NCBI RefSeq assembly: GCF_001653235.2
Contig: NC_035791.1
Coordinates: forward strand, 868,001-932,000
Direction: 5' to 3'
Length of the DNA: 64,000 bases
Origin: Pochonia chlamydosporia 170
Taxonomy: Eukaryota > Ascomycota > Sordariomycetes > Hypocreales > Clavicipitaceae
Part shown: positions 12,965-61,709 of the stretch, piece by piece
Numbering within the stretch: position 1 is the first letter of the stretch
How the letters are laid out: every line of letters begins with the position of its first letter
Position numbers and translations under genes: made by a program
Notes under the pieces: model-generated
Databases searched by the model: none
What the model was told of the DNA's origin: nothing
The model's input: the letters and a program-made list of their open reading frames with translations, nothing else

Positions 12965-15707
12965 TCACAAGTACTTATTCTCCAAGAAAAATTGCTTGAG
13001 TAGTGCCGAGTCCCTTTCTCTATACAGAGCCTTTGCTCGGATCCCTTCCTTCCCCTTTTCCAACGACTGTCTAAAGCCCTCCGTGTTCTTGTCCGCAAAG
13101 AACGCATCCACGTCCTTGATAACATCCTCGCTACTAAATCCGAGCAGGCTCACCTGTACAAACTGATCCAGCAGAAGAGCATCGTTCAACTTGGCCGCGC
13201 ACGCCTCCCAATGATCCTTTGTATATGCCCACTGTACATGCCTACCGATAGGGTGGGCAACCAAAGCGAACAGCACCACGGACATTTCACTTACAGGCAC
13301 GGATGACGACCAGTTGAAGGCGACGAGGTCGCGGAGGATTGACTTGTCGTCTGTTTCTGCCATTGCAAGAAGGATGCTGTTCTTGGTGTCGCTGGACGAT
13401 GTCTTAGTAAACTCAGACATGAGAATTGGGAACACGCGGGTTGGTTCTTTTCGCATAGCAGCGCGAAGCACTATGCGGCGCATACTTGGGTTAATGTCGA
13501 TACCCTTATCAGTCCAGTCGCTGAAAATAGACGCGAATTTGTTCACAGTTCTACGCCACTCTGTTAGTACCAAGGGGGTTATAGCGGTATCAAGGGGGTA
13601 TCCTGCGTACCCAGCATGCCCGTATTTCACAGCTTTCCCAAGCAGAGTTCGGCGAAGACGTCTCATCAAGAAACTATCTTCTGGCAATGCTTCTATACCA
13701 ACATCATTTACCTTGCCTTCAATGAGCTGCAAGGCGAAGTGCTTCAGTCCGGTGCTCATCTCTGCGTCCTCAGAGAAGGCCATCTCGACATTTTGAAGAG
13801 CATCAAGTACCTGCTGCCACACGGTGGCGTGGTTCTCCCGACGAAAACCTTGCAAAAATGACAGCAAAGATGCGGCAGATCCGGATCCCGCAGACGCAAG
13901 GGCAGCCGCAGATCCTATCATGGAACATCTCTCCGAGGCAGAAAGACGGTTCAGTTGTGTGCTTAACAGCGCGAGACGACATGGAGGGTACGCTACTCTA
14001 TAGAATCCGGTGCCTTGGGCATTCAGCTTGTAAAACTCTGGGTCGATACCAGGTATAAACTGTTCCTTTTCGGACAAGAAGGCATCTTGGCCGCAGTCGA
14101 TACCCGTTATACCGAGAGGGATACACCAAAGAGCCGTGTCGTCTTCGGGCTTAACATCGCCGCTCGTCAAGAATCGGGACTGTCGCAACAAAATTTGCCC
14201 CTTATTGGGTATCTCTGTCACTACCACCACCGGATAACCGACAGTATTAATCCATGACTCAGCTATGTCGACGATACCTTTACCAGAAGCAGCTTCAAGG
14301 TTTTCCCACAGGACATGAGCAGTTGCGTTGCCGTAAGCATTGGTCTTCAAGTAACTGGAGACGCCCGCCAAAAACTTCCCAACGCCAACATACTCGACCA
14401 ACATTCTAATAACTGCGCATCCCTTGCCGTAGCTGATTTGGTCGAAAATCTGATGATCCTGCAAACCGCTACTCATGGGGATATGCACGGCGTGGCTGGA
14501 CCGCAATCCGTCTGCCTGAAATGCATCCTCCATGCGGCCAACCACAAACTGTGCCCAGATGTCCCACTCGGGGAATAGCTGATCAACTGCATAATGACCA
14601 GCCCAGGTAGCAAAGCTCTCGTTCAGCCAGAGCTCATCCCACCAGTCCATGGTAACAAGGTTACCAAACCACTGATGTGCGAGTTCGTGAGAGACATTGT
14701 CCGCAATGTCCTGCTTCACAGCTTCGCTTGACGTCTCCGAATCTAACAGAAGCTTTTTGGCAGTTTCAGCAAAGAGATCACTTGACAGCGGAGAAAATAC
14801 ATACTTCAGAGGGTTGGGACGTGATGAGGCCCCAGTGCTCCATACTGGTCATGGACATTTCCGGCACGGCTAAAATGTCCATCTTGTCCAGTGGATAAGG
14901 TATATCAAAGACACCAGAGAAGAGATCAATTACCCTCGGCGCGAGAGTCACTGCGAATTGACCCTGGCTCTGCACCCCTCGAGTGGCATAGACACGTACA
15001 GGAACCCTCTGGCCGTTGTAGAACTGGTCCGTAAAGGCTTCCACATACGCAAAATCACCGACCGCCCAGGCGAGAAGATAAGTGCTCATGATGGGTGTCG
15101 TCTTGAAGGAAACAGCGTGCCAGCCAGCCCGCTCGTCATTGGGCTTAATGCTCCTGACCGGCATGTTACTCAGGACAACCTGGTCAGATGGCACTTCGAT
15201 GGTGAGGGCAAATGTCGCCTTGAGGTTAGGCACGTCGAAGCAAGGAAACGCCCGCCGAGCGTAGCTAGCTTCAAATTGGGTGCTCAGCACATAATGTGAG
15301 CCGTCGTCATCATGAGCGACCGACGCTGCCTGTTGGATGACGGGCTTGTATTTTGAGCGGTAGAAGCCGGCTAGAGAGTCGCTTATCGCTCCTTGGAACT
15401 CAACGGTGATGGTCGCGCTTTTTGTGGCTGGTATTTCGTTGTTGAGATTGATTCTGACGACCTGCATCTTGTCGTCGCAGTCGAACGACGTTGCTTTCGT
15501 GGTAATAGCAACATCGCCGTCCACGAGCACTTGCGCATTCTTAAACTCTAAATGGCTGGCATTGATGGTAATTGACCTGGAAGGCTGGATGAACTCCACG
15601 GCGATGGACACTATGCCATCGTACTTCCAAGTTTCGAAGTCGAGGTTTCGCAGCTCTAGATTGTAGTGCCTGGGTTTCACCAGGTTGATTGGAGCTTGGT
15701 CATCCAT
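12965..15707 (-). CDS. M1-family zinc aminopeptidase with altered exopeptidase motif
   Basis: Zinc metallopeptidase that removes N-terminal residues; probably cytosolic, since no signal peptide is seen. Exons 15707-14805 and 14752-12965 with a 52-bp intron (GTATGT...AAAAAG) give 896 residues, normal for yeast Ape2/Aap1 relatives. The splice was chosen because it joins GLITSQPSE to LLLDSETSSEAVKQD exactly as in the family; unspliced reading hits a stop. The zinc site is complete: H323-E-L-A-H327 in HELAHQWFGN, then E346 in WLNESFATW, 18 residues on. A C-terminal ERAP1-like helical domain follows. The exopeptidase motif, normally G-A-M-E-N, reads T-S-M-E-H at residues 287-291. The Met-Glu is kept but the Gly, Ala and Asn are changed, so specificity may be unusual. 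N-terminus MDDQAPINLVKPRHYNLEL is typical. Confidence 0.93.
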
Positions 15708-19019: not shown

Positions 19020-22000
19020 ATGACAGACAATTCCCACAGTGAATCAAAAGAGTTGGACGAGGTCACCAGACTCGTGGGGACCTACGGCGGTATTCGGGAG
19101 GCACTCAACTCGGGATCGTTGTCTCTTGAACAAGAAGTACGTCTCAGGTCGGACATAGTTGACCTTCTCATCAAAGACAGCGATCAAAGCGGCCTATACG
19201 ACTACCTACAAGATGCAATTCAACATCTGGAGACGATTCTGCGTCGTCTCCCACGGGACTCCCCGGAACGTGCCGTGCATCTGAGTAAGATGTCATACGT
19301 ACAGATGTCTGAACATGTAGCCACCAATTCACGCCACGCGTTGGACGAGGCTGTATCAAACGGGCGCCAGGCCAAAGAATTAGGCGTGACGCATAATCTT
19401 TTGCAGAGCCGCCCAGATGTTTACATAAATGTAATGAAGAATTTTGGATTCGCGCTGTCCCAAAGGTATGCAATAACACTGCAAGCTAATGACCTTGAGG
19501 AAGCCATCGCATGTGCAAAGGAGATATATGATCACGCTCCGAAAGACTCGGCCGAATACTACATGAACCTCAATAACTTTGCATCGCGCCTCCGTATGCA
19601 ATATTCTGAAAGTCAAAATCCAGATGACATCAACGAAGCAATGAGATTGATAAGAGAGCTGCAATCGAGGACGGCCAGTGGTTCAAGGGAGCATGGCTTT
19701 GCTGCAGCACAGCTTGGCGTTATAGGCGCTGACAAGTTCAAGCAAACGAAAGAGTTGCAGGACTTGGATGAAGCGCTTGGGTACTGCAAGGCAGGCCTCG
19801 ATAGCCTTCCTGCGACCCACGAGTTAAGAATACAAATTCTGAGGGTCATTACGAACCTGTACGACTCGAGATATAAATCGACAAGTGAGGAAGGAGACTT
19901 GAGAGGCCACGTCCAGTACTCTGAGCGTTTGCTTCGTGCCATTCCGCCTGGTAATAATGCTCGAGGCAAATATCTTGTCGAGTACATGCGAGGTCTGCAT
20001 AAATTGGCAGAGAGGTTGAAATCTCTTGAGCAGTTTCGGCGAAATATACGGCAACTGAAATCGCTCCTTCTCGACATGCCTTCCAACTACCCTGAGAAAC
20101 CAGGCTGCCACTCAGTCCTGGCTGATTTCTACTTAAGCCAGTACGACCTGTCCCGTGACCTTCAGGACCTGATGGCTTGCGTGGGTGCTGTCAGAGAAGC
20201 AGTACTCGATTACAATGAAGTAGCTCGTGAGAGCGGCTCTCCGCAGAGTACTATTCAAGCATCCTGGCCTTGGGATCTCGGGATATCGCTGGGCAAGCTG
20301 TTTCAAGCACCACGGGACAACCCCATGAGAAAGGCAGCTGAGAGGGGATTGCCTGAGGAACTGAATCATTGCCGCCAGCTCCAGAGCTCTGCTCCCAGTG
20401 CATTGGAGCAGTTTTATCAACAGAGCGGGCCACGATTAAAAGTCCTATCCAAATCTCTTGATGCCGGTCGAGCCCTCTCCAGCGATGAGATCGAGAATGA
20501 GATAAGAAAACTGAAGGAGGAGAAAGGGGCTACCGTTAGCAACAGAAGGCCGTACAAAACGAGTGACTATGTGAACGAACTAGGTGCTCGAAAACTTGCC
20601 ATGGATGAGTCTAAAAACATAATACTAGACTTGAGTGGCATCATGGGTAGTATATTGGGCATCGACCGTGACAAAACGTATACCCGAGAAGAGCTCTGTG
20701 CTCTGCATGCTGAGATGGAACAAAAGGCAATCGACAACGCCCGATCAGAAGGCAGGCATCCAAACTTGCGACTATGCCGCATGTGCCGAGATGAGGTGAA
20801 GATACTGCAGCCTGTTCAAGATGGTTTTGAGTTAGCAGCGAAGAGAGCATGGCTACCTTTTGGGAATTACTTTCAGCTTCTGGACAGATCTAACTGCTCC
20901 ATTTGCTCCCTAATGTTGTCTGCAATCACGACCAAGTCATCCGGGGCACTCCATCCTCGCCTTGCGGCAATAGATCCGGAGGTGCAAGGAATTCGCTTGA
21001 CGAGTGGCCAACTCTCTACAAAGGAAAAGTTGATTCGATTCGACTATGGAATGAAAGCCGCTGGTGAACTGAGACTCTTGACGTCTCAAAACTACTCTCA
21101 GGCTCTTCGCCAAGGTTGGCAAGTGAGTGCGCATTCTTCACCTGCAGAAATTCTTGCCAATCAAAACGGCCCAATCTACGACGCCAGTGGCCAGCAAATT
21201 AACCCAAACTTGGTAAAGTCGTGGTTGAGAGACTGTGATAACAATCACAGATCCGCGTGCAATCATCCGCGACTGGGGAAACGAGCAGATGCCGTGATTA
21301 GCCTAATATTGATTAATGTCCAGGACGAATGCCTGGTTTCGTCGTCTTCTGACGCCAAATACTTTGCGTTGAGCTATGTATGGGGCCAAGTCGACATGTC
21401 CAAAACATTCAAGTCCAACTATAGTGATCGATTGAAAGCCCACTCTCTGGCGGCGATATGCTTTCCGAAGACGATACAGGATGCGATGGCGTTCGTTCGA
21501 TCCCTAGATGAGAGATATCTTTGGGTTGATGCCTTGTGCATTGTACAAGACGACGACATCCAAATGGCTCGCGACATACCTAACATGGATATCATCTACA
21601 GCCAGGCGTTCGCTACCATTGTCGCACTCAGTGGAACTGACGCAAACTCAGGCTTGCCAGGAGTCTCACCGGGTACAAGAGAACCGCAAAAGGTCGCCAC
21701 CGTCACGATTTCAAACAAGTCGCCTGCTCTCGACGATGACCCTCACAGCAACGACAAAGAAATAGTCGGCCTGGTAGCAACACCACGCCAGCTTTATCTG
21801 GAGATAGAGCTGTCTCGTTGGAGCGCCAGGAGCTGGATCGTCCAAGAGCATTTACTTTCGAGGCGTTGCCTGTTCTTCGCACCAGATGCTCTGTACTTTC
21901 AGTGTGGCCAGAGCACTCTGAGTGAAGGCGGCGCCAACGAGGAGTACGTAGCACTCATGCTAGACAAGCTGCGGGGGACGGATAATGACCTTCTCAATAA

Positions 22001-23153
22001 GGCAAATCGGAATAATCCTCTGTCTTCTCTGACTGAATTGCACGATATGTCGTTGCGGGAGCGGATGTCCAAGACTTTCAACGCATACGCCAAGCTCGTT
22101 GAGATCTATAGCCGTCGCAACCTGACGTACAAGTCGGACATTCTAAAGGCATTTGCTGGAATATTTGCCGTTCTTGAGGAGTATTTCGAAAGTGCAGCTG
22201 TCCATGGACTTCCGTCGGCGGTTATCAGCCATGCTCTACTTTGGACACCGATAGCAAGGCTTCCACGTCGAGGTAGTCAGCTGCCAACATCTCGCTCCGC
22301 AAGCACCACTCCTAATTCACAGTTTCCAACTTGGTCGTGGGTGGGATGGGATGGGCCTGTAGAATACCGCGTATTCGAGATGTCAAATGGGAAGATTGCT
22401 CTACCCACGACGAGTGTAAAGGCCTATTATCAATCGAACAATGACCCCATTATTGAACCAACATGGGAGCAGAATCAACTCCACGAGCATATCAAACAAG
22501 AGTCTCATATCCCTGATCAACAAGGGGTCCCGGTTGGCAAAACGGATAGGGATGGGGACAAGACTCAACGCAGGCAGGTCATCGCCAAAATGGTCCCTGA
22601 TCTTGTTCGCGGCAGTACCTGGTTTATCGGAGCCGCCCAAACACCCCAGAATAGGCAGGATTCTTATATTGAAACCAAGCTGTTGCGCTTTACAGCTCGT
22701 ACGGTTGCTCTTCCAGCATTCGGCGTCTCATCGAGGAAGGAATATTTGAGCTACCAGTCCCAAGTTCATAACCGAAGCCCCCAAGCCGTCCGACGCATCC
22801 TGGACCGCAAAGGCAAACACTGCGGGCTGTGGTGGGAGCAGGCCGGGTACGGGTACGTGGGACTGGACATGAGTCCAGATTCTGAAGCCAACATTGACCT
22901 GCTCGAAATATCGCGGTATGGGCCAATGCATTGCCATCGGGACGGGCCGTCTCTTGTCGAAGGCCCCATCAGCATGTTTGACAAGGATGAATACCCGGAG
23001 TTTGGATCAGGCAGTGGGCTGGTCAACATCTTGGCCGTCGATTTAGATATGGGACTTCCGGATGGGATTGGTGAACGATGTACAGTGGCCGTTATTCATT
23101 CCGCAGCATGGGAAGCAGCAAGCCCACAGGAAAAAGAAGTTCGAATGGTGTAG
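19020..23153 (+). CDS. Large HET-domain protein with N-terminal TPR-like repeats
   Basis: Intronless gene for a 1377-residue protein of the heterokaryon-incompatibility (HET, PF06985) class; such proteins trigger cell death on non-self recognition in several fungi. Residues about 20-430 are helical tetratricopeptide-like repeats (for example DLEEAIACAKEIYDHAPKDS and DINEAMRLIRELQSRT), as found in fungal TPR/CHAT regulators. A Cys-containing pre-HET segment, CRMCRDE near residue 585 and CSICSLM further on, precedes the HET domain. HET motifs: YFALSYVWG (about 780), FPKTIQDAMAFV...YLWVDALCIVQDD (about 814-845), RSWIVQEHLLSRRC (about 935) and TWSWVGW (about 1103). The TPR part may act as sensor and the HET part as effector; that division is inference. 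A minus-strand BTB-like gene follows, convergent with this one. Confidence 0.93.
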   Translation: MTDNSHSESKELDEVTRLVGTYGGIREALNSGSLSLEQEVRLRSDIVDLLIKDSDQSGLYDYLQDAIQHLETILRRLPRDSPERAVHLSKMSYVQMSEHVATNSRHALDEAVSNGRQAKELGVTHNLLQSRPDVYINVMKNFGFALSQRYAITLQANDLEEAIACAKEIYDHAPKDSAEYYMNLNNFASRLRMQYSESQNPDDINEAMRLIRELQSRTASGSREHGFAAAQLGVIGADKFKQTKELQDLDEALGYCKAGLDSLPATHELRIQILRVITNLYDSRYKSTSEEGDLRGHVQYSERLLRAIPPGNNARGKYLVEYMRGLHKLAERLKSLEQFRRNIRQLKSLLLDMPSNYPEKPGCHSVLADFYLSQYDLSRDLQDLMACVGAVREAVLDYNEVARESGSPQSTIQASWPWDLGISLGKLFQAPRDNPMRKAAERGLPEELNHCRQLQSSAPSALEQFYQQSGPRLKVLSKSLDAGRALSSDEIENEIRKLKEEKGATVSNRRPYKTSDYVNELGARKLAMDESKNIILDLSGIMGSILGIDRDKTYTREELCALHAEMEQKAIDNARSEGRHPNLRLCRMCRDEVKILQPVQDGFELAAKRAWLPFGNYFQLLDRSNCSICSLMLSAITTKSSGALHPRLAAIDPEVQGIRLTSGQLSTKEKLIRFDYGMKAAGELRLLTSQNYSQALRQGWQVSAHSSPAEILANQNGPIYDASGQQINPNLVKSWLRDCDNNHRSACNHPRLGKRADAVISLILINVQDECLVSSSSDAKYFALSYVWGQVDMSKTFKSNYSDRLKAHSLAAICFPKTIQDAMAFVRSLDERYLWVDALCIVQDDDIQMARDIPNMDIIYSQAFATIVALSGTDANSGLPGVSPGTREPQKVATVTISNKSPALDDDPHSNDKEIVGLVATPRQLYLEIELSRWSARSWIVQEHLLSRRCLFFAPDALYFQCGQSTLSEGGANEEYVALMLDKLRGTDNDLLNKANRNNPLSSLTELHDMSLRERMSKTFNAYAKLVEIYSRRNLTYKSDILKAFAGIFAVLEEYFESAAVHGLPSAVISHALLWTPIARLPRRGSQLPTSRSASTTPNSQFPTWSWVGWDGPVEYRVFEMSNGKIALPTTSVKAYYQSNNDPIIEPTWEQNQLHEHIKQESHIPDQQGVPVGKTDRDGDKTQRRQVIAKMVPDLVRGSTWFIGAAQTPQNRQDSYIETKLLRFTARTVALPAFGVSSRKEYLSYQSQVHNRSPQAVRRILDRKGKHCGLWWEQAGYGYVGLDMSPDSEANIDLLEISRYGPMHCHRDGPSLVEGPISMFDKDEYPEFGSGSGLVNILAVDLDMGLPDGIGERCTVAVIHSAAWEAASPQEKEVRMV

Positions 23154-26671: not shown

Positions 26672-28029
26672 ATCCAGGGTTAGAGTACTAGGGCTTGAGT
26701 AATGGTGGGAAACTATCTAGCAAGCATTGGCAACGCACAGTCCGTCCAATTTTGTAATCAAACATTCACATTGCCATATATTCTTGCGTGTTCACAAGAT
26801 TGAAGTATCGAGCTAACTAGGAGTAAGAGCACCATCGCAGCGGCGAATTCAAGCTGACCTGTTGGCCATGGTTGCGACGCCGAAGTCTGGTTTCTGCGCC
26901 TGTGGTGAAGTTGAGGAGCGCACTGGGCCAACCCCATCGTGAAATTAACACAGCCGTCGTTCTATCACACTGCTCTCACGCCAGGATAATAGGCGATGGA
27001 AGTATTTTTTATTGCATAAGTTCCTCCATTTTTATAGTTTGTGACGATGAAATCCCTCTGTAAGACAGCACTATGAAACGCGAGACTTTCCACGGCACCT
27101 GAGTCTAAACTAATCTGATTAGAATTCCTTCTGGTATCAACTTTCAAGAGTGCGAATAGACTCTGAATCGAAGAACTAGAAAGGGTTGGACCAGTCCATG
27201 GTTCTGTTTCGGCATGCATAGCTGACAAACAACACGAGTGAGCTAACATAGGTTTGCGGTATGTTGTTTTTCCAATTGGCTAGGGAGCGGAGCCCGGGCT
27301 GGAGCAAAGGCCTAAAATCACGTTTGATGCCTTCCTCAGTTCTTTCCTCTTGAACACTGCCAAGACTTGGCCACGATACCATTGTTGCTTTCTAGCCGTA
27401 TATTTACTGTCCTTTGCTTTCGTTGACTCCTTTTATCTCGCAGCGTGTATCCTGCCGTTTTTGTTTTTCGGCACTTAATGTGAGTGTGAAGTACAAGGCG
27501 AAACAAATGCTATCTATTTAGCCATGATAGTGCACCCCTACCAATCAAACGAGGAAAGCTTGGTCACGCCTTCAATGATCCAAAATGCGGTGCTATCAGC
27601 AACCCGGGGAGGTCATTCATACCTGTCAGTCTTGCGAACGATTGATGGTATTTAAGATGAACGCTCTGTTTCTGGGTAGTATTGTAGATGTTTACTGTGG
27701 TCTCATCCTCGTAACAACCCTAAGCTTGATAGGTAGTCTCTGTTCTTAAGTAAGATCATGTGTTTGCAAACAAGGATGCAACGCGATGTGATCAACGAAA
27801 TGTTGCCGATGAAACAATCATCAGAAGTTTGGAGCCTTAGGGTCTGGTCCCGTTTTGGAATATGGTAAGCTTCAACCTGCGGGGATCTGATGCAATTCGG
27901 GACAACACGAATGCCCCGCTCCTTCTGCAGAACCGGTGAGGCAATCTTGCCATCTACATGACATGGTATTTTGTTAAACATCTAGCCACTTGTCGTCATG
28001 TTTCTGGTGCTAACTTCCAGCATATAAAC
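26672..28029. other. Intergenic
   Basis: About 1.35 kb between paralogue B and the second HET gene. Minus-strand frames near 26965-27382 lack motifs and plausible splice partners. No repeat or RNA gene recognised. Confidence 0.45.
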
Positions 28030-29967
28030 ATGCTGTGCTCCATCTGTATGCAAATAGCTGAGGAGTGCCGAGGCAGATACTTTCGCACAGGTCGCCATCA
28101 TTCCACACTTGGACAGCTTCGGGCCGCTGCGAAGCGGAGGTGCGGGCTTTGCATTATCCTATATGAACATTTGGAAATTCAAAGCGGCCACCTCGAAGAG
28201 GTCTACCTGGCTGACCCATTGACATACGAGTTCAGAAACGAGCCAGTTGAAGATGATGACCCTTACCTCACTTTTAAGGGCGCTGGACGTCAACCTCTTA
28301 CAACGGTGTACATTTTACTGGCAAATTTGGTAGCCCCAACAAGTTACGCACGGTGGTTGCAGAAAGACGCAGAGCTGTTGAACCTGATGTTACCAAATAC
28401 CCCCAATGACAAACTACACCCAACAGCTATGGACACTGGGAGTCCTCAAGTCGCCCAGTTAGCCACGAGATGGTTCAGGGACTGTCAACGCACTCATAAA
28501 AGCTGCGGTTTGGCCATAAAACCCAGTGACGGGCACCTTAATCACAGTCGTGATTGGTACCCGGATAGATTATTGGATCTAACCAAAGATGTTCCAAGAC
28601 TACTCATCACTCGGGAGGAGAAACCATCTAGTACACAGTACGCAACACTGAGCTATTGTTGGGGTCCAAATCCGAGACACCTCATTCTGACCTCTGACAA
28701 TTTGCCCAAAATGCGGCAAGGCATTCCGATGAAATCACTCCCCAAAACCTTCAGAGATGCTATCCAGATGGTACGCAAGCTTGAGATACGTTATCTATGG
28801 ATCGACTCTCTATGTATTATTCAGTCTGGAGAAGCCAGTAGAGAAGACTGGGAGCTGCAATCCATGGCTATGAGCACAATTTACGCCCGCAGCACTATCA
28901 ATATCTCTGCAGATTGGGCGTCCGATGCTACAGAAGGATGTTTCAGTGATCGCGATGTCGACGTTTTTAATTCAATCTTCTTCACATGGGAAGATGAGCA
29001 TCACGCATTTGTGGACCAGGGGATCTTCCAGAGACTGTCATCAACGCCAATTTGGCGACGAGGATGGGTGGTGCAAGAACGGCTTCTATCCCGTTGCGTG
29101 CTCCATTTCGGGCGGGACCAGATCTTTTGGGAATGCCAAGAAGTACCTTTCGCATGCGAGAGTTTCCCAGGTGAAATGGACATATGGACATTCGTTGATA
29201 CAATCCCGTTCAACTTGGCACTTCCTGTGCTCGGTCGGTCCGGGGGAGCAAACTGGTCAGATCTTGTGAGGCTGTACAGCAGCCGCGAACTGAGTTTTCC
29301 GTCAAATGACAAGTTTGCTGCCCTCGGAGCGGTTGCAGAAGTATACTCCGACCTTTACCACGATGAATATGTAGCTGGCCTGTTTGCAAGTGAACTGCCG
29401 GCAGCATTATGTTGGCGAGTTGTTGACGCAGGCACAACGCCCAATATTCTTCGGAGCAGCGAATTTCGTGCCCCGTCATGGAGCTGGGCCAGCATCGATG
29501 GGGTTGTGGATGTGAAGGTAGACTATTCGTTTGATGACGAGTATGGCACAGGTGATACGATTCATAGTGCGGTGAGAGACGTGAATATCGACCTGCTTCG
29601 CCCACAGTTTAAGACCGGGCCAGTGCTCGCAGCGCGAATCACGTTGGAAGGCAGTTTCTTCACCAAGAAGTTCCATGAAGAACTATTCAACCTCTTGTCA
29701 GGACGGACTGATATTCTAAATAACAACCAAACGATAAAGCTTGATGTAATAATGGATTCCACTACCCCAGGCGCAAAGTCAGACTCAGTTGTTTTCTTCC
29801 CAATCATTTCTAACAATGTTGGATATCGAGGAATCATCTTGAACCATCATATCACACCTTCGGAAGAGACATATTCTAGAGTTGGATATTTTTCTGTTCA
29901 CGAAACGAAATTGTTCTGGGAGCGGAATGATGTGCTGGACATGAAGCGGATAATAACTTTGATATAG
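28030..29967 (+). CDS. HET-domain protein (canonical type)
   Basis: Heterokaryon-incompatibility protein (PF06985), intronless, 645 residues from the ATG at 28030. This start begins MLCSICMQIAEECRG, the usual Cys-rich opening; an in-frame ATG at 27958 would add 24 residues. The pre-HET segment has CSIC and CGLC pairs. HET motifs: YATLSYCWG (about residue 204), LPKTFRDAIQMVRKLEIRYL then WIDSLCIIQ (about 237-265), ARSTINISADWASDATEGCF, RRGWVVQERLLSRC (about 342) and RAPSWSWASIDG (about 480). This is the standard 600-700-residue form, unlike the TPR-fused HET at 19020. All core motifs are intact, so the gene is probably functional. These genes are usually expressed at low level and vary greatly between strains. 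Confidence 0.93.
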   Translation: MLCSICMQIAEECRGRYFRTGRHHSTLGQLRAAAKRRCGLCIILYEHLEIQSGHLEEVYLADPLTYEFRNEPVEDDDPYLTFKGAGRQPLTTVYILLANLVAPTSYARWLQKDAELLNLMLPNTPNDKLHPTAMDTGSPQVAQLATRWFRDCQRTHKSCGLAIKPSDGHLNHSRDWYPDRLLDLTKDVPRLLITREEKPSSTQYATLSYCWGPNPRHLILTSDNLPKMRQGIPMKSLPKTFRDAIQMVRKLEIRYLWIDSLCIIQSGEASREDWELQSMAMSTIYARSTINISADWASDATEGCFSDRDVDVFNSIFFTWEDEHHAFVDQGIFQRLSSTPIWRRGWVVQERLLSRCVLHFGRDQIFWECQEVPFACESFPGEMDIWTFVDTIPFNLALPVLGRSGGANWSDLVRLYSSRELSFPSNDKFAALGAVAEVYSDLYHDEYVAGLFASELPAALCWRVVDAGTTPNILRSSEFRAPSWSWASIDGVVDVKVDYSFDDEYGTGDTIHSAVRDVNIDLLRPQFKTGPVLAARITLEGSFFTKKFHEELFNLLSGRTDILNNNQTIKLDVIMDSTTPGAKSDSVVFFPIISNNVGYRGIILNHHITPSEETYSRVGYFSVHETKLFWERNDVLDMKRIITLI

Positions 29968-35230: not shown

Positions 35231-38224
35231 ATGCAACCGTGCTCTTACGGTACTGCCGTTGCAATTCATATGCCTACGTCAAACCATTCAACTCGTGCGA
35301 ATCTTCGCCGACAGCGAGGCCATGATCCCAGTGATCAGTTGCACCAGGAGAAACGACCGCAATCTAGCCAGCAAGCCAGATTCAGCCCTTCACCAGATGA
35401 GGTCCGACCACAATCCGCGAGTAGTTCTGTCACAAGCACCAGCCGATTTTACGGGCTTGGAGACGATAACGCACTCGATAACCTATTCGCTTCTAGTCCA
35501 CAGACATTTTCGAGCCTCCCGCATCCTCACGGCTCACAAGGTCTTCACGAGCCTGCATGGGAGCTTCGTTCAGATTATGAGATCTATCTGCAGAATGACT
35601 TCTTCCATGGACAAGAACATATTCAGCGAGTCACATCGCTTATACCAGGCCCAGAGCTCGGTCTATTTGCCTCTAAGCCTCCCGAATCACCCCAATCCGC
35701 TCAGCAGCCCCCAGCAACAAGAAGAACCGAGTTCCAATCCGCAATGAGCATAGTGCGAGATGTTATTGGCGAAGGGCGAACGTTAACCATTGATCTCGCG
35801 CGCTCATATGAACGGGTACGAGGATGGCGAGAGAGATGGGGTTGGCCACCCTTAAGTCCAGAAGCATATGAGCCCCCTCCGCCATACTCTCCAACCTGTA
35901 GGTTACCTACACAATCACTTCTAGTATCACCTACCCAGGAGAATATTGATTCATCGCCTATTCGACAGTCTATTTCCCCCATTCCAGAGCAGATCCTGAA
36001 CCCACCGATTCCAGGCGATCCAGCGCCCTCGGCCGAAGCTCTTTTCGAGAGAGTGAATAGCTTTGCCAAGAAGCATGGCTTTGGTATTGTCCGAAGGAAT
36101 AAATATTCCTACAAGGGACGGCTGATAAGATACACTTTTCTATGTGATCGGTATGGGCCACCTGAAGCCTCACAAAGCGCCGGTCTTAGGGTCAAAAGAT
36201 CTCGAAAATGTGGGTGTAAATGGAAGGTTATTGCCGAAGCTCTGCAAGAGGGCAAGTGGCTTCTGCGACAGCATGAAAATCCTGAGCATCACCAGCACAA
36301 CCATGAAAGGAGTATTACCCCATCCTCGCATCCTTCCCATAGACGCCTTACCACATCAGTCAAAGCAGCTATCGAGTCAGCAAGTCGTCGAGCAGGTATT
36401 CGGGCTAGCGATGTAGCTGCTATCGTTGAAGCAGAATTCCCTGATACTACACTGCTGCGGAAAGATATCTACAATGCCCGTTGTCTTATTAATCGAGAAA
36501 AACTGAGTGGCTATACACCTACTGCGGCATTGATCAAGCTCTTTGATGAGAAGCGCATTCCGTATCTCGCCAAATGGGCTGATAATGAACCTAATAGATT
36601 ACTTGGTCTTGTCTGGACGTTTCCCTATTGTCTACAGATGTGGAAGCGCTTCCCTGAGGTTATAAGCTTCGATAATACATATAACACCAATAGATTCAAG
36701 CTTCCATTATTTCAAGCCACTGGACAAACCTGTCTCGGGACGGTGTTCAATGCTGCATTTGGCTTAATAGATAACGAGAGGAGAGAAGGCTTCCAATTTC
36801 TTGCCGAGAGCATTCGCGAACTTATTACGAAACACTCAATCAGACAACCTGATGTTATCATCACAGACTTCGACAAGGCAATGAAAGCTGCTCTTCAGGA
36901 CCAATTCCCGCTTATACAGCAACAGCTCTGTATTCATCATATTCTTTCAAATGTTCTCCTACAATCGAAGAATAGGTGGGTAGGCGGCGGTGAGGGTAGA
37001 GCTAGCTTCGCCACTAGTGACAGCGAAGATGTTGCTTCCCAAACACAGGTGCGGCTTGGCACTACAGACAAACATCTGATTAAAGATTCCTCAACTAGCG
37101 ATAAGATTCCTCATACCTACTAAGGTGTTGTCTTGATGTGGAAGCGGGTTCTCTATGCTGAGACAGAGGAAGCGTTCGAGCAAGCATGGAGAGATCTTTG
37201 TAAAGAGTTCGATGATCAGCGGGCGATTCTACAATACCTCTATTCGATCTATCTGCCCGTCAGTGCTCAATGGGCACGCTGCTTTATCCGTCACTATCGT
37301 AACTTTGGTATTCGTGTTACATCTGGCACAGAAGCAAGCAACAACAATGTCAAAAGCTATCTCTTGAACGGCATGAGCCACCTCTACCGACTCGTCGAGG
37401 CAATGCAAGACATGATTCACGACCAAGAACGTAGTTTTAAGGATGCATGTGGGCAGGATGATGTCCTTACTGCCCCCCAATACATGGGTTCAATGGGGGA
37501 CTATCTTGGCGAGCTGCGAACAATTATGTCATCGAAGGGACTGGGGTTAATCAGTAAGCAATACCGCATTGCTCTCAAGTTTATGCCGACGGGTAAGAAC
37601 CCTTTTCCTGACTCTATTGGACCTTGCGACAACGACTGTACGGTTTCTGTTGAGCTCGGCATTCCCTGCTATCATAAAGTCTATGCAAAGCTAGATTCCG
37701 GAACACCTTTCACGAAATGGGAGGTCCATCCACATTGGAGACTCAGGGAATCAGCATCTCGAGACCCATACCTCCGAATTCTTGACCCGAAAATTGCTAC
37801 TACATTACGTGGGAGACCAAAGAACACTATCCAGGCGGTTCCTGAGAGCCTAGCTATTACGGCAAGCCATCGGTCTGGCAGTCAGACAAGCAGTCAGAGG
37901 CAGGGTCGGCATCCCCCGAGTCAATTAATTAGTCACTCAAATGGGCGAAGGCGAGGTCGACCACCAGGGAGCCTCAACAAATCCACCCTTGCCAAGAGAG
38001 CAAAAGATTTGAGTCAAGACACTATGGCACGAACCAGTAGCCAGACAAGCGTCTCAACCCGGCAACAGAAAAATAGGCTTCCTGTGGTTCTTGAAGCCGG
38101 GAAGTCATCAGGAATGCGCTACAGTGGTCGAAGGACGCAACCAAATGTTCGCAGAACAAGAAGTCAATGGGAATTGGCCAAGAGTGGAGAAGACGATGCA
38201 AGTTGTATTGTGGTTATACCGTGA
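35231..38224 (+). pseudogene. MULE transposase (FAR1-type DNA-binding, DDE catalytic, SWIM finger) with one in-frame stop
   Basis: Catalyses excision and integration of the element, in the nucleus. From ATG 35231 the frame runs 630 codons to TAA at 37121-37123, then continues in the same frame to 38224, about 997 codons in all. Order of parts: a low-complexity N-terminus; a FAR1/WRKY-GCM1-like DNA-binding region (FGIVRRNKYSYKGRLIRYTF...RKCGCKWKV); the MULE core with first Asp in VISFDNTYNTN and second in IITDFDKAMKAA; probable catalytic Glu in TSGTEASNNNVKSYL; a SWIM-type finger (CTVSVELGIPCYHK); and an AT-hook-like GRRRGRPPGS. The stop falls in TY*GVVLMWKR, where relatives usually have Gln. 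CAA to TAA is one C-to-T change in a CpA context, the signature of repeat-induced point mutation. Everything else looks intact. Confidence 0.9.
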
Positions 38225-53196: not shown

Positions 53197-54481
53197 TCAA
53201 GTTCGGCCTCCTGCCATTGTTGCTTCAATCAAATCATGGCCAATCTCAAACTGCAGTCCATGAGGACATGGAATGTCTTCAATAGCAACTGAAAGACACG
53301 TCCACGTTAGCGACCGCACAATGTCGCGGATAAAATTGATATTGCGAAAACAGAATGCAGGAGTTGATGAATAATTGACTTACACCACTCTTCTGTCGCC
53401 TCGGGATGAGGTCCGATGAGGCCAACCCAGCCTTGGCCATACTTGTTCAGAGACGAGGCTACACGACCACTATGTGAATACCGCCCAAGGACAAAGCAAG
53501 TGTCACTTTCAACAAAGCGTTTAATGACGGCGCCTTCCTGAAAGTAAATCCACCTATTCTTAGCCTTCTGGCCAGCCTTGTCGCCAGTGGTAAAGTTCCA
53601 GTCCACCTGGATGATGGTGTCTTCATCGGTGGTCACCTGGGCTCCCTTCTGGCAATTTTCGGCGTCTGTGTCAGATCCCCGAGGAAGCAGTCCAAATCCC
53701 GGTGTGTGGCCGGCGAGGTACGCACCCAGACAGAAGCCAAGGTAGCGACCTCCACGAGAGACAAAATCCCGGATTGCGGGCGCAAAGGCTTTGGTCTCGG
53801 CCCAAGCATCGTCAAGGTCTGTGGGGGTCAAGCCCGAAATTCGACATTAGTCGAGTGTGTTTCTAAGACGACAGGGTCAAGCCAGGAGGAATTATTTGGG
53901 TTCATGGATGCAGGAAAGCATGTATGTATGTATGTCTGGATGTAAGTGTGTGTGTGTGTGTGAATGCAACGTGTGCAAGTTGTGGCCAAAGAGGCAGGTC
54001 AATGTTTGACAAATATAGACGAGCTCGCCCACGAAGCCGGGAGACGGGAAACGGAATGACGAGCTGAAAAAGAAAAGAAGCCAATGGGCTCGGTAAAGTC
54101 CGGCCATGCCATGCCATGAGGTTTTGAAACAAAAAGAAACCCATTGCATTGCTCTGCTGGGCTCTGGTCTGCGCTTTGCTGCAATGCACTGCACCCCAAA
54201 GACAAATGCAAGACCCTCCAGGAGAGCAGCAAGCGAGGCTGACCGACTGACGGGCTGACTGAATGACTGACAGAATGAAGGAATGACATACCTGGACCTC
54301 CCGGCTGAGCGTACAAGTCCACCTTGCTCAAGGTCTCGTATGACACCTGAATCGCTTCGCCAGGACCTGCATAACGCACCTCGAAGTTCCGAGGGGACGT
54401 CTCAAGAAGCTTGGCAACGGCTTCGGGCAAGCCCTTGCTGCTTGCTGGTCCACGATAGACAAGGGCCTGTGGTCGAGGCAT
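53197..54481 (-). CDS. Biotin-protein-ligase N-terminal-domain protein (glutamine amidotransferase-like fold)
   Basis: Stand-alone BPL_N-type protein (PF09825), a class-I amidotransferase-like fold also found at the N-terminus of fungal biotin ligases; function of single-domain members unknown. Exons 54481-54292, 53818-53384 and 53288-53197 give 238 residues. Exon 1 encodes PRPQALVYRGPASSKGLPEA and ends at YAQPGGPG. Exon 2 starts DLDDAW and includes RDFVSRGGRYLGFCLGAYLAG, where the Cys of GFCLGAYLAG is the nucleophile position of the family, then WNFTTGDKAG and GRYSHSGRVAS, VGLIGPHPEATEEW. Exon 3 ends FEIGHDLIEATMAGGRT. The first intron is 473 bp, several times longer than any other here, and contains simple repeats; the second is 95 bp. 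No biotin-ligase catalytic domain follows, so it is not a full ligase. Confidence 0.87.
53921..53963. repeat. Simple repeats (ATGT)n and (TG)n inside an intron
   Basis: Runs of ATGT/GTAT followed by an uninterrupted TG repeat lie within the long first intron of the BPL_N-type gene. Polymorphic length is likely. Confidence 0.8.
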
Positions 54482-57677: not shown

Positions 57678-60600
57678 ATGGAGAAAGAAATGTCAAAGGT
57701 TCAGGTCCATCGTGACCTCAAGAATCTCGCCATGAGCCAAAAATCACAGAGACAGCCCTCTCACAACGACAATCTCGCCATATATCCCGTCCAACAAGCT
57801 GCCGGTCCACGAACGTTGGTGGATATACTCGACGCTTCTGTCTCATCACACCCTACGGCCATTGCCATTGACAATGGAACCTCACGTCTAAGTTATGCCG
57901 ACCTGTCTCAACAAATAGCCGCGCGTGTCAAACAATTGAGAGCCGCAGGCATCGGCGTTGGCGATAAAGTGGGTATTCGTGTTACCTCCGGTTCGATAGA
58001 GTTATATGTTGGCATTCTTGCTATTCTCACTGCGGGAGCTGCTTATGTCCCCGTCGATGTGGATGACCCGGATGAGCGAGCTCGACTTGTCTGGACAGAA
58101 GCCAATGTGTCTGCAGTCTTGACCGATAATGAAACTCTTACGCCTCATAGCCCACCGGTAGGGAGCTCAAGACAGCGTCGCCCTGGCCCCGAGGACGACG
58201 CCTGGGTTATTTTTACTTCTGGTTCAACCGGCAAGCCAAAGGGCGTAGCTGTCACTCACCGCAGTGCGGCAGCCTTTGTTGATGCCGAATCCCTCATTTT
58301 CCTTCCAGATCGACCACTTGGTCCAGGAGACCGAGTCCTTGCTGGTCTCTCGGTTGCATTTGACGCCTCATGCGAGGAAATGTGGCTGGCCTGGCGATAT
58401 GCTGCCTGCCTCGTTCCCGCACCACGCTCCTTAGTTAAAGCCGGCGCCGATCTAGGAACCTTCCTTACAACACAGCGCATCACGGTCGTCTCTACCGTGC
58501 CCACATTGGCCGCATTATGGCCGGCCGAAGCCCTCCGAGGACTTCGCCTGCTTATCCTTGGAGGAGAAGCCTGTCCATCTGAGCTGGCAAACAGGCTCGC
58601 CAGCACTGTTGAGTCAGTTTGGAACACCTACGGCCCGACGGAAGCAACAGTTGTAGCTTGCGGCGCACCACTGGTTGCCGGCCAGCCAGTACGAATTGGT
58701 CTGCCCCTGGCCGGTTGGAAACTAGCCGTTGTCGGCCCCGACGACAAACCCGTCGGCTGGGGCGAAGAGGGAGAGTTGATCATTGGCGGTGTCGGAATGG
58801 CCCGCTACCTCGATCTCGATAAAGACAAGGTCAAGTTTGCGCCAGCTCCCGTATTTGGTGGAGAACGAGCCTACCGCAGTGGAGACTTGGTTCGCGCCGA
58901 GCGAGACGGACTCCTCTTTGTCGGCCGAAACGATGAACAAATCAAGCTTGGTGGACGACGCATCGAACTGGGTGAGATTGACGCCGCCCTCCTGACTTTA
59001 CCAGACGTGTGCGCCGCAGCATGTACCATCCAACGCAGCGAAATGGGCGCGCAGGTGCTTGTGGGTTACATCGTCTGCAACAATGGCCGCGCACCTACAG
59101 CCCAGGATCGCGAACTTCTCCGCCGTGCATTGCCCCCAACCCTCGTCCCTATGCTTGTTACTGTCGACGACCTCCCAGTCCGGACCTCCGGCAAAGTGGA
59201 CCGGAAGTCCCTCCCTTGGCCGCCGCCTCCACGGCCGGCCCCACATGGCGGAGCCGGCAGCCACGGCCAATCCGGACACGCGGAGAAATTCGATGCTGAT
59301 GGTACCACAGCATGGATTGCTGAGCAATGGCGTCGCGTTCTGGGTATGCCCCCGTCTCTGGATTCTAATTTCTTCGATCTTGGTGGAACCAGCTTGGGTG
59401 CTGCGCAGCTCATCTCTCAAATCCGGCTAAAATGCCCTACGATTTCCGTCGCTGACGTCTACGAGAATCCCACCCTGGAAGCAATGGCTGCTCGTGTCGA
59501 AGACTTGATGGACACCAAGGAGATTGAACGCGAGGTGGTACCAACTCCCCGATGGCTTATGCTGATTCAGTTTTTCATCATGCTGATTGAGATGGGTTTC
59601 AATGGCATTCGCTGGGTCATCACGCTTGGCTTTGTCAAAAAGATCTTCGTTCTGGTCCTCGGACCCAACAATTGGGCGGGAGCTTACGCACTCCCATGGT
59701 GGTTGATTGCAGTCGTCTGGGGCATCTTCGGTACTGCAATTGGACGGCTTATCCTCAGCGCAGGAATTGCCCGAGTTGTATTGTTCGGCATTCGCCCTGG
59801 CACCTATAAGCGTGGAGGCATTCGACACATCAGACTCTGGGCCGTCGGCCGTTTGATGGGACTCGTTGGGACTGGAGCTGCAGCCGGTACCCCTTGGATC
59901 AGATACTACGCCCGCTTGGTGGGCTGCCGAGTAGCTTCGGGTGTGCAGCTTCATGCCTTCCCACCAGCCACAGGTCATGCAAGCTTTGGCCCAGGATGTG
60001 CCGTAGAGCCGGAAGCCGATATTGCCGGATGGTGGCTTGATGGTGACAAGCTGCATATTGGAAGCATTACCATTGGCGAGGGAGCAAGGGTTGGTGCCCG
60101 CAGCACACTTATGCCTGGCACAATCCTGGATCCGTATGCCAATGTTCCTCCTGGCGTCAGCGTCGAAGGCATTGTTCGAGCTTCTGACAATTCACTTGAG
60201 ATCAAGGCAAGTCAATCACCCCACGCCACCAAGCGGGAGAGCATTTGGATATGGCTCTTGTACACGGGTTCCATGATGGGCATGGATATCCTGGGTCTTG
60301 TCAGCCTGGCCCCAATTATTGCTCTCATGCCCGTCTTTAGACCCGATTACAACAATCTCGGAGAGATCATTATGGCCCTTGTCAAGATTGCAGCCCCAGG
60401 ATCAGCAATCGGGTTGATCATGTACGGCGTCTCTGTGATTTTATGGGTCCGATTTGCCAGTCTTTTTCTCAAGCCTGGTGTCTACCCATGGCATGGCGTC
60501 ACAACCTGGGCGGCTTGGTTGACCCATGGCTTGATGATGAACGCACGAACTGTCTACTTCCCTGCTTACGCAAGCTTGTTCACTCCTATTTGGTTGAGGT

Positions 60601-61709
60601 TACTGGGCGCCCGCGTTGGCCGCAATGTTGAGGCGTCGACAGTGGTCCCCATTCCATCACTGCTTGACGTGAAAGACGGAAGTTTCCTCGCTGACGACGT
60701 CCTCTTATCGCCCTTTGAGCTTGCCGGTGGTCAAGTCCGCATTGGCACTGCAACAATCGGCGAGAAGTCGTTTGTTGGCAATTCAGCCATCGTGGACCCA
60801 GATGTGGAAATCCCCGAAGGTGTATTAATCGGTGTGTTGAGCTCAGCTTTGGGCCCAGAGGAAATGGGCTGCAAAATCGCTCCCGGTAACTCGTATCTCG
60901 GCAGACCACCCATGGCTATCCCCAGACGCATCACAACTCTTGCTGACAACGCACGCACCTTTGATCCGCCATTCAAGTTGAAGGTAGCCAGAGCATTGGT
61001 CGAGTGTTGCCGTGTGATCCCACTGATCATCTCTGGTGTTCTTGCAACCTGTATTGCGATAGGAATGCTCTGGGTCTTCGTCACCTTTGGAGTCGGCTGG
61101 GCAGTCTTGGCCAGCGGTGGACTTTTTTTTGTTGGTGGTGTGACTGCTTGTGTTATCACAACATTGGCAAAATGGCTCTTGACGCCAAACATCAAAGCCG
61201 GGCACCAACATCCCCTATGGAGCTCCTTCGTCTGGCGCAATGAGCTCGCCGACACATTCATTCAGTGCCTCGCTGTGCCCTGGTTCGTCACAGTATGCTA
61301 CGGCACCCCTTTCCTTAATATTTGGATGCGCTCCCTCGGTTGCAAGATTGGACGTGGTGTCTGGCTAGAAAGCCATTTGTTGCCCGAGGCTGACTTGATT
61401 ACACTGGAAGATGGTGCAACCGTCAATCGCGGCGCCGTCCTCCAGACTCACCTGTTCCATGACCGACTCATGCGTCTCGACAAGGTCCACCTTGAAGCTG
61501 GCGCGACACTCGGCCCTTACGCCATCTCACTTCCAGGTACTGTTATCGGAGCTGGCACGACTATCGCTCCCACTTCACTCGTTATGCGTGGGGAGAGTAT
61601 CCCAGCTGGCACAAGATGGCGTGGCAACCCTGTCCGAACGTGGCACAGCGAAAAGGAGAGCCCCAGCCCCAGCTCTGGTTCTGACAATGAGTCACTACCT
61701 CCAGTATGA
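57678..61709 (+). CDS. Epsilon-poly-L-lysine synthetase-like membrane NRPS (A-T-TM-C1-C2-C3 architecture)
   Basis: Intronless 1343-residue protein with the architecture of epsilon-poly-lysine synthetase (Pls): one adenylation and one carrier domain fused to membrane helices and tandem acyltransferase-like domains that elongate an isopeptide-linked lysine chain. Adenylation motifs: IFTSGSTGKPKG (T at 180), FDASCEEMW (Asp that holds the alpha-amino group), WNTYGPTEATV, YRSGDLV, GRNDEQIKLGGRRIELGEID and a final RTSGKVDRKSL with the catalytic Lys. Carrier motif FFDLGGTSLGAAQL with Ser572 for phosphopantetheine. From about residue 625, pairs of hydrophobic helices (WLMLIQFFIMLIEMGF, WWLIAVVWGIFGTAIG, and later pairs) alternate with three soluble domains containing hexapeptide repeats such as ITIGEGARVGARSTLMPGTI, ATIGEKSFVGNSAIVDPDV and VHLEAGATLGPYAISLPGTV. 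No condensation or thioesterase domain. Substrate lysine is inferred from architecture only; another amino acid is possible. Bacterial Pls is of similar size. Confidence 0.9.
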   Translation: MEKEMSKVQVHRDLKNLAMSQKSQRQPSHNDNLAIYPVQQAAGPRTLVDILDASVSSHPTAIAIDNGTSRLSYADLSQQIAARVKQLRAAGIGVGDKVGIRVTSGSIELYVGILAILTAGAAYVPVDVDDPDERARLVWTEANVSAVLTDNETLTPHSPPVGSSRQRRPGPEDDAWVIFTSGSTGKPKGVAVTHRSAAAFVDAESLIFLPDRPLGPGDRVLAGLSVAFDASCEEMWLAWRYAACLVPAPRSLVKAGADLGTFLTTQRITVVSTVPTLAALWPAEALRGLRLLILGGEACPSELANRLASTVESVWNTYGPTEATVVACGAPLVAGQPVRIGLPLAGWKLAVVGPDDKPVGWGEEGELIIGGVGMARYLDLDKDKVKFAPAPVFGGERAYRSGDLVRAERDGLLFVGRNDEQIKLGGRRIELGEIDAALLTLPDVCAAACTIQRSEMGAQVLVGYIVCNNGRAPTAQDRELLRRALPPTLVPMLVTVDDLPVRTSGKVDRKSLPWPPPPRPAPHGGAGSHGQSGHAEKFDADGTTAWIAEQWRRVLGMPPSLDSNFFDLGGTSLGAAQLISQIRLKCPTISVADVYENPTLEAMAARVEDLMDTKEIEREVVPTPRWLMLIQFFIMLIEMGFNGIRWVITLGFVKKIFVLVLGPNNWAGAYALPWWLIAVVWGIFGTAIGRLILSAGIARVVLFGIRPGTYKRGGIRHIRLWAVGRLMGLVGTGAAAGTPWIRYYARLVGCRVASGVQLHAFPPATGHASFGPGCAVEPEADIAGWWLDGDKLHIGSITIGEGARVGARSTLMPGTILDPYANVPPGVSVEGIVRASDNSLEIKASQSPHATKRESIWIWLLYTGSMMGMDILGLVSLAPIIALMPVFRPDYNNLGEIIMALVKIAAPGSAIGLIMYGVSVILWVRFASLFLKPGVYPWHGVTTWAAWLTHGLMMNARTVYFPAYASLFTPIWLRLLGARVGRNVEASTVVPIPSLLDVKDGSFLADDVLLSPFELAGGQVRIGTATIGEKSFVGNSAIVDPDVEIPEGVLIGVLSSALGPEEMGCKIAPGNSYLGRPPMAIPRRITTLADNARTFDPPFKLKVARALVECCRVIPLIISGVLATCIAIGMLWVFVTFGVGWAVLASGGLFFVGGVTACVITTLAKWLLTPNIKAGHQHPLWSSFVWRNELADTFIQCLAVPWFVTVCYGTPFLNIWMRSLGCKIGRGVWLESHLLPEADLITLEDGATVNRGAVLQTHLFHDRLMRLDKVHLEAGATLGPYAISLPGTVIGAGTTIAPTSLVMRGESIPAGTRWRGNPVRTWHSEKESPSPSSGSDNESLPPV

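Follow-up and report, generated by a model that had tools for sequence, protein, structure and literature searches.

A gene in a 64,000-nt stretch of Pochonia chlamydosporia 170 (contig NC_035791.1, positions 868,001 to 932,000 of the forward strand; hereafter, the window) most likely encodes a functional fungal epsilon-poly-L-lysine (e-PL) synthetase, Epls. Judging from its specificity code and its closest relatives, the likeliest product is very probably e-PL. The same genome carries a second, full-length gene of this type on another contig, so that the fungus probably possesses two e-PL synthetases. Enzymes of this type have been described before from related fungi; new here are the second copy and the finding that it groups apart from the first.

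Domain organization and integrity of the gene

The synthetase frame opens with an ATG at 57678, closes with a TGA at 61707-61709 and encodes 1343 residues without internal stops (Table 1). Besides Met1 and Met5, Met19 is another possible start, and Claviceps-type sequences (e.g., P0013 and P0018) begin near it; the choice among the three leaves all domains untouched. We consider the gene intronless because bacterial proteins align with its frame almost from end to end and because the second copy is likewise a single open frame. A search with the protein matched 7794 of the 7997 scored candidates at E <= 0.001; among the 120 matches listed, the best named one is from Metarhizium rileyi (76% identity over 99%).

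The C-terminal part (residues 634-1319) scored 546.2 bits against the NCBIfam model TIGR02353 ('Pls/PosA family'), whose cut-off is 423.1. Pfam recognized an AMP-binding domain at residues 52-376 (4.6e-57) and a PP-binding domain at residues 546-607 (2.7e-13), and AMP-binding_C fell below its cut-off. The Hexapep family reached 2e-12 over the whole protein, with its best stretch at residues 797-830, and no individual stretch reached E <= 0.001. Condensation, thioesterase and reductase families were not found in the Pfam scan at E <= 0.001. Two computed sources, hydropathy and an AlphaFold model of the C-terminal part (pLDDT 87.3, pTM 0.88), place six membrane helices (TM) in three pairs that separate three beta-helix domains (C1-C3). 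Fold searches with the beta-helix parts returned hexapeptide acyltransferase folds with middling Z. An earlier note on this DNA, made from the letters alone, had described an intact and intronless gene with the plan of a Pls synthetase: an adenylation (A) domain, a carrier (T) site at Ser572, paired membrane helices and hexapeptide domains, and neither a condensation nor a thioesterase domain. That description was borne out.

The conservation of the protein was evaluated in an alignment of 209 rows, made up of the two copies from this genome, 119 database proteins and 88 loci from bacteria; P0002, which is identical in protein to the window gene, was excluded. At 253 positions, conservation reached at least 98% in the 200 other e-PL-type rows, and neither of the two copies deviates at any of these. 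Together with the stop-free frame, this rules out a pseudogene. The attachment residue Ser572 is kept in at least 97% of the 202 e-PL-type rows and in at least six of the seven outgroup rows. Q1256 and H1258 of the QTHLFHDR motif are kept in at least 97% of the e-PL-type rows and in all seven outgroup rows, and His1258 may be considered a candidate catalytic residue for bond formation. The phosphopantetheinyl transferase domain has two matches in the genome, one in an open frame of 301 aa and the other in a frame of 1686 aa.

Table 1. Positions of the synthetase gene, its predicted parts and the second copy (window coordinates except for the last line).
Feature	Position	Strand	Basis or remark
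Epls/Pls-type gene	57678..61709	+	single exon, 1343 codons + stop; TIGR02353 above cut-off
Alternative start Met5	57690..57692	+	database copy P0002 begins here, 1339 aa
Adenylation domain + C-terminal subdomain, residues 45-515	57810..59222	+	PF00501; alignment to 7wew
Span of ten specificity residues	58362..59195	+	D229 A230 E233 S272 I293 G295 T317 V325 V326 K506
Carrier (thiolation) domain, residues 546-607	59313..59498	+	Pfam PF00550
Phosphopantetheine attachment Ser572	59391..59393	+	GGTSLG motif
First hydrophobic helix pair, residues 626-706	59553..59795	+	hydropathy; AlphaFold model
C1 hexapeptide/beta-helix domain, ~residues 707-835	59796..60182	+	Pfam Hexapep; model
Second hydrophobic helix pair, residues 864-932	60267..60473	+	hydropathy; AlphaFold model
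C2 beta-helix domain, ~residues 933-1075	60474..60902	+	AlphaFold model
Third hydrophobic helix pair, residues 1103-1169	60984..61184	+	hydropathy; AlphaFold model
C3 beta-helix domain, ~residues 1171-1320	61188..61637	+	most conserved among the three beta-helix domains
QTHLFHDR motif with His1258, residues 1256-1263	61443..61466	+	conservation
Second e-PL-type synthetase	G000:C4:3024175-3028089 (L010:1450-5427)		other contig; protein search of genome

Specificity code and predicted monomer

The ten specificity residues of the adenylation domain read DAESIGTVVK. This code is present in 198 of the 209 aligned rows (window protein counted), which include both bacterial and fungal enzymes of the e-PL type. 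Among the 11 other rows, seven are the Pls/PosA outgroup (28-32% identity), which carry other codes, and four belong to the fungal clade and present a gap or a single change (P0008, P0035, P0046 and P0052). One of these, P0008 of Metarhizium guizhouense, is named epsilon-poly-L-lysine synthase and is missing about 157 residues from the centre of its adenylation domain, which is perhaps a gene-model error. The mapping of the code is supported by the outgroup: two of its rows read DMEHNGTVTK and DSECYGGVTK, the former one residue away from the printed code of PosA (DMEHNGTVSK) and the latter identical to that of a Bdellovibrionales enzyme (DSECYGGVTK; PMC10522769). In the same paper, Ala at the second code position is associated with lysine as the monomer; Met there points to ornithine, and Phe to diaminopropionate. 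Finally, the top PDB match was the e-PL synthase of Streptomyces albulus (7wew; 629.6 bits, the runner-up reaching 358.9), which aligns to residues 31-517 (E 6.8e-189) and agrees at the code sites. The comparison of specificity residues had been set beforehand as a check on the proposed function, and its outcome speaks for it.

The bacterial e-PL synthetases (the S. albulus A domain 7wew and S. albospinus P0120) are identical to the window gene in code and domain order, and P0120 shares 53% identity with the window protein over the alignment. PosA, the delta-poly-L-ornithine synthetase of Acinetobacter baumannii, has the family and the membrane-domain plan in common with the window protein (PMC10522769), but the A. 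baumannii rows are only 28.9-29.0% identical to it and their codes differ. Likewise, the poly-diaminopropionate and poly-diaminobutyrate types of Pls/PosA follow the same membrane-domain plan, whereas rows not of the e-PL type are 26-34% identical and carry other codes.

A second synthetase in the same genome

The second copy is a full-length, intronless gene with one open frame of 1325 residues and the same code, DAESIGTVVK; it is 63% identical to the window protein over residues 31-1341. A published survey of clusters in strain 170 lists a single NAPAA (e-PL-type) cluster and no further one in the mixed class (PMC12352038), whereas two genes were found here. We found no description of a fungal e-PL synthetase isoenzyme pair, and no paper on e-PL production by Pochonia, in a literature search of open-licence papers.

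The identity between the two copies is unevenly distributed along the protein: it reaches 73% in the A domain and 80% in C3, but drops to 33% in the T-TM linker, 17% in the linker between C1 and TM3 and 29% in TM3-4. The copies could share labour, making the same monomer into polymers that differ in chain length, timing or release site. We regard this as possible but rather doubtful. Code and conserved sites are alike in both copies while the linkers and TM3-4 are far less alike than the A domain and C3; in addition, work cited in PMC7179176 places the control of chain length in linker regions, and that paper itself reports strain-dependent chain length. However, membrane segments and linkers are the fastest-changing parts in the comparison of the window gene with M. 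rileyi, too (46% in TM3-4 and 60% in the C1-TM3 linker, relative to 88% in the A domain), and the pattern of divergence between the copies may thus be neutral.

Phylogeny and origin of the fungal synthetases

We inferred a FastTree phylogeny from 105 of the 209 rows, with the seven Pls/PosA rows as outgroup (a length filter of 1100 aa dropped none), and two IQ-TREE phylogenies from 49 and 29 rows drawn from the 105 for spread, each with three outgroup rows. A phylogeny with bacterial Pls and fungal homologues had also been planned in the earlier note, and it places a fungal clade beside the bacterial e-PL-type synthetases. This clade gathers 54 of the 105 rows (both copies, 28 rows of named fungi and 24 without name) and has a support of 100 in all three trees. 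The window gene clusters with the Metarhizium enzymes, again with a support of 100 in each tree; these clade-mates are 74-76% identical to it, and the Claviceps rows 63%. The second copy pairs with UV8b_05532 of Ustilaginoidea virens (support 99, 99 and 96). The other copy of U. virens, UV8b_07622, lies on the side of the window gene, a side that is itself held together weakly (88 and 81 with FastTree; 83 with IQ-TREE, 49 rows). The forks that part the two fungal lineages are supported at 81-88 (FastTree) and 83-93 (IQ-TREE, 49 rows), which is weaker than the lineages themselves. The presence of both kinds of synthetase in this genome and in U. virens suggests either an old duplication followed by losses or a transfer from fungus to fungus.

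The fungi are nested inside the bacterial e-PL-type rows in all three trees. Six rows adjoin the fungal clade with a support of 100, of which two are named (Kutzneria and a Pseudonocardiaceae metagenome-assembled genome); in the 105-row tree these six fall within a set of 44 rows whose named members are all actinobacterial. Forcing the bacterial e-PL-type rows into one clade was rejected under LG+G4 (p-AU 0.036; 23 rows vs 26), but the same constraint was not rejected with a mixture model (p-AU 0.105; 15 rows vs 14). An actinobacterial origin of the fungal synthetases is therefore favoured by these trees without being proven. The GC3 of the synthetase gene (0.548) lies in the range of five other measured frames of the window (0.49-0.64), its nearest relatives come from fungi and the second copy, too, lacks introns, all of which indicates that any acquisition from bacteria was old. 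A recent bacterial transfer into this genome alone is ruled out by the fungal closest relatives and the non-foreign GC3, and is also countered by the clade shared with the second copy and the 28 named fungal rows. The transfer from bacteria that the earlier note considered possible would belong to the whole sampled fungal clade and not to this gene in particular. The fungal genes probably derive from one actinobacterial-type enzyme that would have been gained long ago and then duplicated.

The fungal copies have not simply tracked the species tree. Indeed, those of Cordycipitaceae (Beauveria, Cordyceps and Akanthomyces) cluster with Dothideomycetes (Zymoseptoria, Cercospora and Acrodontium) in the 105-row tree, which suggests gene transfer between fungi. 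The gene has also been reported in Cladobotryum, where horizontal transfer was discussed (PMC10989895).

Gene neighbourhood

Among the 38 frames listed in the flanks, 20 were scanned with Pfam (13 around the window gene and seven around the second copy). Six matched: two alcohol dehydrogenase halves, BPL_N, UstYa-like, GH75 chitosanase and, in the flank of the second copy, Zn2Cys6. The other 14 matched nothing, and we do not claim a biosynthetic cluster around the gene. The UstYa-like and GH75 frames (L101:6775-7260 and L101:8918-9328, on G000:C2) lie downstream of the synthetase, at distances of about 5 and 7 kb. The BPL_N-type frame is a small gene on the - strand at ~53200-54480 of the window, ~3.2 kb upstream of the synthetase; its match is partial (28 of 283 profile positions), and its introns were judged by eye. 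Two Rhodococcus plasmids (L107 and L108) also have a BPL_N gene immediately following a Pls/PosA gene. When 30 of 80 bacterial loci were examined, any BPL_N match was found in three of the 30 genomes with e-PL-type genes, and the link as a conserved partner is unsupported. One of these matches (genome of L038, C40:27737-27961) may lie ~6 kb from pls, provided that the contig numbers match.

In two of the three bacterial e-PL-type loci viewed with their annotated flanks, pls is followed by an M1 metallopeptidase gene, whereas none was seen beside the window gene. These two genes, on Kitasatospora and Streptomyces plasmids (L100:9023-10354 and L109:8951-10354), are directly downstream of pls, and the peptidases possibly degrade the polymer or protect the producer. 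The window does contain an M1 peptidase gene at 12965-15707, ~42 kb from the synthetase and probably unrelated. In three of seven outgroup loci, from Sphingomonas, Rhizobium and Shinella (L093, L098 and L099), a 4'-phosphopantetheinyl transferase gene stands directly behind Pls/PosA. A Streptomyces Pls/PosA gene (L097:517-5157; code DFECLSAVTK) overlaps a diaminobutyrate transaminase gene, which suggests that its product may be poly-diaminobutyrate. Elsewhere in the window, an open frame with MULE transposase and FAR1 DNA-binding domains (35231-37123) is placed between two HET genes (19020-23153 and 27958-29967) and the synthetase. The closest named protein to the neighbouring MCH1 gene is from Metarhizium rileyi (86%).

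Discussion

The earlier note knew of one fungal case, which understates the record: publications already report homologues from many Ascomycota (PMC7179176, PMC10989895 and PMC11457142). A 2020 paper introduced Epls of Epichloe together with the chemistry of its product: e-PL of 28-34 residues was purified from Epichloe festucae and epls was identified, and its overexpression yielded 6.7-fold more e-PL in one strain and began production in a non-producer (PMC7179176). The same study reports that Epls homologues are well conserved across Clavicipitaceae. In 2024, epls was described in Metarhizium brunneum, and a database comparison added several other Metarhizium and P. chlamydosporia (PMC11457142). 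The Epichloe enzyme (BGC0002174) resembles the window gene in being fungal and from Clavicipitaceae, in its A-T-(TM/C1-C3) layout and in its lysine-type pocket as given in the paper; this likeness comes from its description and not from direct alignment, its sequence being absent from the named matches listed.

By analogy with these enzymes, the adenylation domain would activate L-lysine using ATP and load it onto the phosphopantetheine arm of Ser572. The membrane-embedded C-terminal part, with its three helix pairs and three beta-helix domains, would act as a repeated bond former, joining the epsilon-amino group of one lysine to the carboxyl group of the next into an isopeptide chain. A chain of some tens of residues would then be set free as an antimicrobial polycation. 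For the window copy, we infer its expression, its product, its export and the transferase that arms Ser572.

Several observations weigh against this interpretation. First, no partner gene was recognized in the 20 scanned flanking frames, 14 of which gave no Pfam match. Second, E. festucae Fl1 yielded detectable e-PL only after overexpression of epls or vibA (PMC7179176), yet it carries a NAPAA cluster (PMC12352038), which indicates that the presence of the gene need not mean production. The Pochonia gene could similarly be intact but silent or conditional, with no polymer made in ordinary culture. We view this as a less likely outcome that deserves consideration, because neither copy has lost any of the 253 conserved sites, which speaks for their being used at some life stage. 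Third, the tree of Patel and Gulick puts most fungal sequences in an ornithine-activating branch (PMC10522769), so that being fungal is by itself no predictor of lysine; the code and clade of the window gene do predict lysine, and the gene appears unlike those fungal sequences. A different cationic homopolymer (poly-beta-lysine, poly-ornithine or a mixed chain) is very improbable: the code settles neither substrate nor bond, its degeneracy is reported (PMC10522769) and what is known of the product chemistry in fungi comes from Epichloe and from the producer reports cited in PMC7179176, but the window gene carries the e-PL-type code and neither that of the poly-beta-lysine enzyme (DGESISVVNK; PMC10522769) nor that of PosA.

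The assignment to Epls places a known antimicrobial-polymer enzyme in P. chlamydosporia; apart from the second copy, the finding is ordinary for its family.

This fungus is both a parasite of nematode eggs and a root endophyte. We tentatively speculate, as an unlikely scenario, that some Clavicipitaceae retain two anciently split e-PL synthetases that use the same monomer but have grown apart in their linkers and membrane segments, their polymers differing in length or deployment. If this were true, one polymer might serve, for example, against soil or plant microbes and the other on the animal host. The two natural copies, with one code and divergent linkers, offer a ready comparison for how chain length is set.

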